A model generated the notes under the pieces. It made no database searches. It saw only the letters and a list, made by a program, of their open reading frames with translations, and was not told where the DNA came from. Made by a program: the position numbers and the translations under genes. A DNA stretch of 36,269 nt. Origin: Bacteroidota bacterium. Lineage in GTDB: Bacteria; Bacteroidota; Bacteroidia; Bacteroidales; WCHB1-69. The DNA lies in the NCBI GenBank assembly GCA_019135895.1, contig JAGVVH010000168.1, positions 1 to 36,269 of the forward strand, in the 5' to 3' direction. Shown here piece by piece: positions 1 through 1,327 of this stretch (position 1 is the first letter of the stretch; each line of letters starts with the position of its first letter).

Positions 1-2
1 AA

Positions 3-86
3 ATGGCTCTTCAAATGAATAGAAGAGCATGGATTAGAAAACTTTGGGAAAAATCTGTTTATTTTGAGTTTGACATTTCTTCTTGA
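3..86 (+). CDS. Possible 3' end of a gene entering from outside the window
   Basis: The frame is open from the window edge to a TGA at 84-86 and encodes about 27 residues rich in Arg, Trp and Lys. It could be the tail of an upstream gene or a chance open frame. No family is recognisable from so short a piece. Confidence 0.2.
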   Translation: MALQMNRRAWIRKLWEKSVYFEFDISS

Positions 87-226
87 TGATTCTAATGGAA
101 AATTTGGGATTATTTCTTTTTTATATAATTTTTTTATTCGTTTCAATAAAGCTCACAAAATTAAGAATTATTCTTTTCGATAAACATCATTTTCTTCTTT
201 TATGTATTTTTTTTCAAAAAACGAGT

Positions 227-497
227 CGTTCCCTTCGACAGGGGACGTTCCCTTCGACAAGCTCAGGGAACGAAGGCGCCTTCGACAAGCTCAGGCGCCG
301 AAGGGTTTTCGGGGCAACAAAGTGCTTTCAGGGAACGTCGACAGGCTCAGGGAACGACATGTCCATTATTCAGACAGGTCGCTGAGCTTGTCGAAGCGAC
401 GCTATTCTGACCGCTCGCTGAGCCTGCCGAAGCGAGCTATTTGTAGCCTGTCGAAGCGAGCTATCTGCTTCGGTACCTGAGCCTGTCGAAGGTACCG
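227..497. repeat. Array of REP-like hairpins with constant core and covarying arms
   Basis: Five clear units share the 11-nt core TCGACAAGCTC or its reverse complement GAGCYTGYCGA, each flanked by 6-8 nt arms complementary to each other but different from unit to unit. They are 246-272 (CGTTCCCT/AGGGAACG), 275-299 (GGCGCCT/AGGCGCC), 378-400 (GTCGCT/AGCGAC), 413-437 (GCTCGCT/AGCGAGC) and 471-497 (CGGTACCT/AGGTACCG). Degraded or half copies lie at 227-247, 329-356 and 444-463. The first units carry the core in one orientation and the later ones in the other. The open frames across this stretch are low-complexity by-products of the repeats, so I do not call genes here. The core resembles short palindromic repeats I know from several bacterial phyla; no mobilising gene is next to it. 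Confidence 0.85.
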
Positions 498-676
498 TTT
501 GGCGGAATGAATAATTTCCGATTGCGATACTGTTTTCTGTCAAGTTACCACTACTTTCAACACGGGCTATAACATTGAGTGTTTTTAGTTTTGTGTTTGG
601 TCAGGTATCTGAGCTGAAAGCTTCAAATTCATACATCTGAACGGCTGGAAAATCACTCTTGAATCGTTGATTTTTC
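498..676. other. Intergenic stretch without a recognisable gene
   Basis: No convincing coding frame is present. On the minus strand, about 500-580 stays open and translates to plausible protein-like sequence (TLNVIARVESSGNLTENS), but stops interrupt it upstream. It may be a worn gene fragment that the repeat array has entered. Confidence 0.3.
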
Positions 677-1327
677 TCACTTTTTCAATATTTTTGAGGT
701 GTATTCTGTATAATAACTTCTTATAAATGAATCAATAAATTCGTCCGAATCTCCCTCTTTTTGTAATTCCTTCTTTATTTTTTTATATTCATCAGTTTTC
801 TTGAAGGCTATAAATTGTTTTTCCTTAAACATTTCATACTCTTTATAATCATAGCGTTTTTCATTTTTTAAAAAACCTTCTTCAATTTCTAACAAAATAT
901 AATTTTTGTATGTAGAACCATAACCCATGTGAACATAATTAACTAAATCTCCATATGGCAACACAAGAATTCCTGTCAGCCAATCAACCTTAATCTCCTT
1001 TTTTTCAGGAAAAACTTCATTAATTACACTTTTCCATTGTTTATCGTGATTATTATCGGTTGTATCATAATAGGATATTTGAATATCTTTGACATACAGC
1101 ACGCTGTCCCTAATCTCAAAAGTAGCCACATACCCTCTCCAAAGTGATGTTGACATAATTCCACCCTTAGGTCTTTTGTCCGGATTTTTCTCAAAATATG
1201 ATTCTAATGGATTGCTATGTAAATTATATTCAATACCATTGTAAATTAATTTGTCAGGTTGTTGAGCTGTAGCAAAAACATTCAGTCCGAATAAAACAGC
1301 AAAAATAATTGTCAAAATTGTTTTCAT
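677..1327 (-). CDS. Secreted protein of unknown function
   Basis: A 216-residue protein with a clear signal peptide: a short basic start, a hydrophobic core and a probable cut after FATAQ near residue 22. The rest is hydrophilic, rich in Lys, Glu and Tyr, with no membrane segment and no motif I recognise. The C-terminal third is strongly charged and probably helical. The ATG at 1325-1327 fits the signal peptide and no SD-like sequence precedes it. The gene stands alone between the repeat array and a RhuM remnant, in a region that looks accessory. A periplasmic or surface location is inferred from the signal peptide only. Confidence 0.7.
   Translation of the reverse strand: MKTILTIIFAVLFGLNVFATAQQPDKLIYNGIEYNLHSNPLESYFEKNPDKRPKGGIMSTSLWRGYVATFEIRDSVLYVKDIQISYYDTTDNNHDKQWKSVINEVFPEKKEIKVDWLTGILVLPYGDLVNYVHMGYGSTYKNYILLEIEEGFLKNEKRYDYKEYEMFKEKQFIAFKKTDEYKKIKKELQKEGDSDEFIDSFIRSYYTEYTSKILKK

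Follow-up and report, generated by a model that had tools for sequence, protein, structure and literature searches.

The window, by which we mean the whole 36,269-nucleotide stretch of contig JAGVVH010000168.1 that was analyzed, comes from a Bacteroidota bacterium and contains an array of short hairpins at positions 227-497. The array is intergenic, lies 3' of a 216-aa ORF, and consists of five intact hairpins and three decayed copies. The window also encodes a type IX secretion signal domain. The features in and next to the array are:

227-247, minus strand: decayed copy 1, CGTTCCCTTCGACA-GGGGACG, with most of the core gone by internal deletion
246-272, minus strand: intact hairpin, foot CGTT, stem CCCT/AGGG extended to 8 bp, core at 254-264 (GAGCTTGTCGA); the GAG strand is the minus strand
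275-299, minus strand: intact hairpin, foot CGGC, stem GCCT/AGGC extended to 7 bp, core at 282-292 (GAGCTTGTCGA)
328-356, minus strand: two truncated copies, both ending in AACG, TCAGGGAACG (328-337) and TCGACAGGCTCAGGGAACG (338-356, core at 338-348)
378-400, plus strand: intact hairpin, foot AGGT, stem CGCT/AGCG (6 bp), core at 384-394 (GAGCTTGTCGA)
413-437, plus strand: intact hairpin, foot CGCT, stem CGCT/AGCG (7 bp), core at 420-430 (GAGCCTGCCGA)
445-461, plus strand: decayed copy, AGCCTGTCGA-AGCGAGC, with the 5' arm missing
471-497, plus strand: intact hairpin, foot CGGT, stem ACCT/AGGT (8 bp), core at 479-489 (GAGCCTGTCGA)
677-1327, minus strand: 216-aa ORF with no Pfam family, its 3' end facing the array

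The array is a real feature of the DNA. A chance origin is excluded because the window has six core matches (with at most one mismatch), five of them inside the array, compared to 0.21 expected by chance, and because the array folds as single-stranded DNA at z = -6.6. An earlier sequence-only reading had described five hairpins here with named complementary arms, and all five are present in the window sequence. That reading had also described the 11-nt core as constant. The loop is indeed the constant part of the hairpins, but it is not strictly fixed, as three core variants occur in the five intact hairpins (TCGACAAGCTC three times, TCGACAGGCTC and TCGGCAGGCTC once each). The core orientation flips within the array, as had been noticed: three copies with the TCGAC strand are followed by four with the GAG strand. 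None of the three decayed copies, which the earlier reading had not counted, forms a full hairpin; those at 328-356 have retained the foot CGTT and lack the opposite arm. NCBIfam gave nothing specific.

The repeat unit is NGNT-[4 bp]-GAGCYTGTCGA-[4 bp]. From other loci in many genomes we collected 166 distinct copies, using the core, and not the arms, to select them; among the loci fetched with the seed 25-mer, copies with the arms of that 25-mer were left out. Pairing at stem positions 1 to 4 was 95, 81, 75 and 75%, compared to 89, 54, 32 and 36% with shuffled partners, and the covariation z at these four pairs next to the 11-nt loop was 10.0, 11.1, 12.7 and 12.3. From stem position 5, pairing dropped to near background, indicating that the maintained stem is 4 bp. 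Covarying arms and a maintained stem had been proposed from the window alone; this holds for the four pairs, and the rest of the arms is optional. The arms also pair in copies from elsewhere, with a perfect stem of at least 4 bp in 103 of the 166.

The unit has a one-sided conserved foot that the earlier reading had missed. On the 5' side, G was found at -7 in 85% of the 166 copies and -5 was mostly T, and the 3' side had no signal. The polarity of the repeat is therefore fixed, and the GAG strand is the meaningful strand. Feet among these copies included CGTT, GGTT, CGCT, AGGT, TGGT, and CGGT, and the five intact copies in the window fit the unit with the feet given above. In Agreia Leaf283 the unit is CGTT-CCCT-GAGCYTGTCGA-AGGG, in which each base of the foot CGTT is 95-99% conserved and the matching positions on the opposite side are free.

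The source genome contains an internal control for the pairing arms. It has 14 GAGCYTGYCGA sites, eight of which are in its two arrays, the one in the window and a second on contig C541 (L009:243-318). Stems of 6-11 bp were present at seven of the eight array sites, the exception being one decayed copy, and the six sites outside the arrays all had stems of 0 bp.

The repeats are widespread and are neither confined to this locus nor an assembly artefact. Searching relatives for the core, we found the 13-mer TTCGACARGCTCA in 164 of 295 genomes of the order, with up to 100 copies, and the reversed control pattern gave near-zero counts in the same genomes. The exact 25-mer of the first intact hairpin was present in 101 reference-genome stretches from many phyla, with hosts that include Agreia, Agromyces, Treponema, Desulfonema, Chloroflexi, Fibrobacter, Caldithrix, Thiomargarita, Methylotenera, Flavobacterium, and Bacteroidales. 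The highest copy number was 603 per genome, in Microbacteriaceae; Agreia Leaf283 has 408 copies, Agromyces mediolanus 140, and genome G261 45. Among the open-access papers searched with the core as 14-mers and 11-mers there was no description of the repeat, the 11-mer matches being in papers with unrelated titles and abstracts.

The set of copies differs between sibling species. In orthologous gaps of sibling Agreia species an inverted pair is either present or absent, and some gaps hold another palindrome instead. The Agreia copies lie shortly 3' of gene ends, mostly in tandem and convergent gaps (the gene calls are rough). Inverted pairs with the feet outward are frequent in Agreia, where many such intergenic palindromes occur, compared to two arrays only in the source genome. 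The foot end is retained in truncated copies, many in Agreia and two in the window. We rejected a replichore-type strand bias in Agreia, as copies are found on both strands.

The repeats are associated with genes for a small standalone GIY-YIG nuclease. We clustered all ORFs near cores across phyla, with no candidate set beforehand, and found a small GIY-YIG protein at distance zero in four unrelated loci. A search of 37 genomes for GIY-YIG proteins found small standalone forms in most of the core-rich genomes; the zero-copy genomes examined among the 37 had only UvrC and a few longer or weak GIY-YIG forms. Cores lie on both sides of the small GIY-YIG gene in several Agreia species, Agromyces, Methylotenera, Bacteroidales, Thiomargarita, and Chloroflexi, a range that spans gamma- and betaproteobacteria as well as genomes of Bacteroidota.

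We then counted GAG..CGA hairpins (stem of at least 4, within 600 bp) at 39 GIY-YIG loci that had been fetched by protein alone. Such hairpins were present at 35 of the 39 loci, on both sides in 22, at a density of 3.45/kb; four loci had none nearby. In the controls, hairpins were found at 1 of 30 Y1 loci and 0 of 8 UvrC loci, and shuffled flanks had 0.011/kb. A hairpin census near the nuclease genes with no preset sequence gave GAGCTTGTCGA, GAGCGGAGTCGA, GAGCGGAGCCGA, GAGCCTGTCGA, GAGCGAAGTCGA, and GAGGYTCTCGA as the top loops. The sequence-only reading had suggested that the core is recognized by a protein, a transposase-like enzyme, or RNA processing, and that a RAYT or other dedicated nuclease be looked for. 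A dedicated enzyme is indeed implied, and the evidence points to the small GIY-YIG nuclease and not to a transposase; the DNA sequences analyzed gave no support for RNA processing.

All eight nucleases that were aligned match PF01541, and the catalytic Tyr, Arg, His, and Glu are invariant in these eight. Plasmid and phage relatives of the nuclease have less than 60% identity, and there is therefore no clear vehicle. In Agreia Leaf283 the gene is at G297:C1:1736953-1737219. At four loci (L063, which is from Chloroflexi, L059, L106, and L375) the tail of the GIY-YIG ORF reads through the hairpins in frame, which yields peptides such as PELVEG and PEPVEG. In addition, the small GIY-YIG gene is duplicated in tandem at G261:C19, G217:C15, G116:C87, and G195:C1, at distances from a few hundred bases to 1.2 kb, and these duplicates look as if they had been formed by recombination between flanking arrays.

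Copy number was associated with the presence of the nuclease gene. In the order, at least 10 copies were found in 16 of 43 genomes with a strong nuclease match versus 19 of 252 others (odds ratio 7.3, p = 1.6e-6, uncorrected for relatedness), and a rank test of copy number against genomes without a match gave p = 1.7e-10, also uncorrected for relatedness. A later replicate in Microbacteriaceae gave at least 10 copies in 14 of 48 genomes with the gene versus 10 of 152 (odds ratio 5.8, p = 1e-4, again with relatedness uncorrected). In genomes with few copies, those copies tended to be at the nuclease gene (3 of 3 in G230, p = 1e-9; 5 of 11 in G169; 3 of 4 in G284), which fits the gene as their source. 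No nuclease match was detected in ten genomes of the order with at least 10 copies, nor in Desulfonema magnum, Anaerolineales HSG25, and a Treponema. Many copies without a detected gene would fit REPs that outlive their enzyme, as can happen.

The array in the window is probably an orphan. The source genome is a draft (5.09 Mb in 579 contigs, 93.9% complete) in which we found no cognate-type GIY-YIG gene, and no GIY-YIG-like motif was present in the first 3 kb of the window or on contig C541. The sole small GIY-YIG gene of this genome belongs to another, distant subfamily (E = 1e-15); it is on contig C452 (L384) and adjoins CGTC-type hairpins, one with the loop GAGCGAAGCGA. Because the draft lacks a cognate nuclease and has only the two arrays, we believe that the window array was probably orphaned through loss, partial transfer, or an assembly gap.

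The repeats that flank related nucleases keep the GAG...CGA platform and have other apices, including GAGCGNAGYCGA and GAGGYTCTCGA. The long-apex forms in Microbacteriaceae are GAGTAG-hairpin-TATCGA and GAGGAG-hairpin-TCTCGA on 4-bp stems such as GGTC/GACC and GGTT/AACC, and nucleases of this family without a CYTGT loop carry [GGTC]GAG-TAG-hairpin-TAT-CGA[GACC]. A long-loop match was found at 26 of 30 Microbacteriaceae loci (2.86/kb versus 0.13 in shuffled sequence), a few of these being two short copies read as one or chance matches; by form, 9 of the 30 nuclease loci have the short loop and the rest the long apex. The common actinobacterial palindrome GGTCGAGTAG...GTATCGAGACC (L452-L478, Microbacteriaceae) also fits NGNT-4bp-GAG...CGA and flanks GIY-YIG genes. 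Loop class clustered weakly on the protein tree, with 14 changes versus 17.7 when shuffled, and a simple code of one loop for one clade is thus weakly supported.

A more distant GIY-YIG group, which includes the gene of the source genome, has CGTCATT-type hairpins beside 8 of 25 loci. On plasmid AZO_p3 of Azospirillum lipoferum (L499), a GIY-YIG gene lies between sufB and sufC and is flanked on both sides by CGTC-ATCCCCGC-GAAG-GCGGGGAT-CCAG hairpins, making its product a candidate for the dedicated enzyme of CGTC repeats. On plasmid p1 of Planktothrix agardhii (L496), a GIY-YIG gene between a gene for an MmeI-type restriction enzyme and a DISARM gene is flanked by TGTC-ATTCT-GAGTGAAACGA-AGAAT hairpins.

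Based on these results, we conclude, with a probability of about 0.75, that the array is a cluster of REP-like palindromes that occur across phyla and that their dedicated partner is a small standalone GIY-YIG nuclease. The features that speak for it, all read from the sequences, are the anatomy of the unit, its covariation and polarity, mobility between siblings, gene nesting, the association with copy number, and loop variation among related nucleases. Weighing against it are the lack of a cognate nuclease in the source genome, the high-copy genomes with no match, the four nuclease loci that have no hairpin nearby, the small share of short loops at the Microbacteriaceae loci, and the weak fit of loop class to the protein tree.

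The causal relationship could run the other way. GIY-YIG domains are typical of homing endonucleases, and the gene might home into hairpins that it does not make, the hairpins being targets or passengers that spread by template-switching or by transfer with neighboring DNA. The tandem gene duplicates, the location of the Azospirillum gene between sufB and sufC, and the several high-copy genomes without the gene speak for this. However, copy number rises with the presence of the gene in two taxa, the few copies of low-copy genomes adjoin the gene, as fits a source, and other apices on the common platform are found beside related nucleases. We therefore consider this alternative unlikely.

It is much less probable that the repeats are classic REPs or REPINs mobilized by a Y1 HUH transposase (RAYT/TnpA-REP) that reads the hairpin and a foot tetranucleotide. 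The layout is that of REPs, with a foot and a hairpin, inverted pairs, an intergenic 3' location, and hundreds of copies, and the source genome carries two Y1 genes, the region upstream of one of which matches window positions 110-219. But Y1_Tnp is missing from the three genomes with the copy numbers given above (Agreia Leaf283, Agromyces mediolanus, and G261), the core was within 1.5 kb of none of 30 Y1 loci in 20 core-holding genomes, with any GAG..CGA hairpin at only the one locus already mentioned, and the foot differs from GT[AG]G. An HMM search for Y1 at the loci around the 25-mer found nothing outside the source genome. Absence from high-copy genomes and failure to flank the repeats led us to reject RAYT/Y1 as the partner.

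One of the Y1 genes of the source genome (L012:2929-3720, contig C273 of G000) encodes the motif YIENQSEHH; after it comes another kind of hairpin array, made of several repeats of GCACCGAAGGTGCGAAATCAATAGCCTTGGGCAACGCCCATGG. The motif fits Y1 subclass 1.2, which is reported as being without REPs (PMC6006769). The region just upstream of this gene (L012:2729-2842) is the one that matches the DNA directly beside our array, with 79% identity over 114 bp on the opposite strand; window positions 110-219 are perhaps the promoter or leader of a lost Y1 gene.

Least credible is that the hairpins are transcription terminators or stabilizers of mRNA 3' ends, shared by descent or convergence: the Agreia copies shortly after stop codons would suit this, but there was no terminator-like site (G+C-rich stem, small loop, T run) in window positions 1-800 and no match to Rfam covariance models (E ≤ 1) in positions 1-2400, the hairpins occur on both strands, a terminator would need a loop far smaller than 11 nt, and the foot and the GAG/CGA platform would have no role.

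Returning to the GIY-YIG nuclease as the partner, we infer that its substrate is single-stranded DNA. The GAG strand would fold into the hairpin when single-stranded, on the lagging-strand template or in DNA that is taken up. GAG and CGA may form a closing G-C pair with two tandem G.A mismatches above it, and this G.A platform would present a fixed shape atop a stem of any sequence. The cognate nuclease would read the foot and the platform and nick the single-stranded hairpin, and repair or recombination would then spread, truncate, and invert copies, such that the nuclease gene would stay nested between arrays of its own target. GIY-YIG enzymes hydrolyze DNA, and we know of no joining activity in them. 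Copying would therefore need host repair, in contrast to the direct strand transfer that is the copying route proposed for RAYT.

We also favor, somewhat more cautiously, a broader interpretation, in which this is a second, RAYT-independent machinery for making REP-like repeats. It would comprise one superfamily of small GIY-YIG nucleases nested in NGNT-[4 bp]-GAG-apex-CGA palindromes and would span at least Bacteroidota, Actinomycetota, Chloroflexota, and Pseudomonadota; CGTC repeats, together with the GIY-YIG proteins that partner them, would form a sister branch. The free stem and fixed platform would be a shape-based code under which the repeat could drift and still keep its enzyme.

REPs are common bacterial repeats, and to our knowledge the RAYT transposase is the only generally known REP maker. 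Gene nesting, the association with copy number, and matching repeat variants tie a GIY-YIG nuclease to a large repeat family that lacks RAYT, and make the question of who makes these REPs directly testable with one small protein and one oligonucleotide. In the suggested recognition scheme, the GAG/CGA shape stays constant and the short stem beneath it varies; if that shape is what is read, this would explain how the arms change freely and yet always pair.

Some relatives of the nuclease are already known. UPF0213 GIY-YIG proteins (PDB 1zg2, 1ywl), for which we know of no association with repeats, are sequence relatives with solved structures. The Ssn proteins, from 2025, are reportedly small GIY-YIG enzymes that cut single-stranded DNA at the NTS repeat in Neisseria. 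Like the system described here, Ssn reportedly combines a small standalone GIY-YIG protein with a hairpin repeat of its own that is present in many genomic copies; the two reportedly differ in loop, foot, and phyla. The work on Ssn may already cover part of the GAG-platform repeats; if so, our results would be a confirmation with added anatomy.

The repeats share several traits with REP/REPIN and RAYT systems (PMC2817692, PMC3116915, PMC6006769): short intergenic palindromes that have a foot on one side only and occur in inverted pairs, a dedicated enzyme whose gene lies among copies of its own repeat, and a patchy taxonomic spread. They differ in that the partner is a GIY-YIG protein and not HUH/Y1, the foot is NGNT and not GT[AG]G, and the sequence is fixed in the loop but free in the stem.

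The CGTC-tagged palindromic repeats are REP-like and occur in several phyla, including Bacteroidetes (Di Nocera et al. 2013, PMC3733652). They have a CGTC, TGTC, or CCTC foot, stems of 8-9 bp that start with AT, loops of 4-5 nt, and a CCA tail, and the paper that defined them found no RAYT partner or dedicated enzyme (PMC3733652). The window copies have an 11-nt loop and none of the foot, stem-start, loop, or tail traits of this class; some copies in G261 and on the Planktothrix plasmid do have CGTC or TGTC feet. CGTC repeats and GAG-platform repeats look like sister systems, since in Azospirillum a related GIY-YIG gene has CGTC repeats on both sides.
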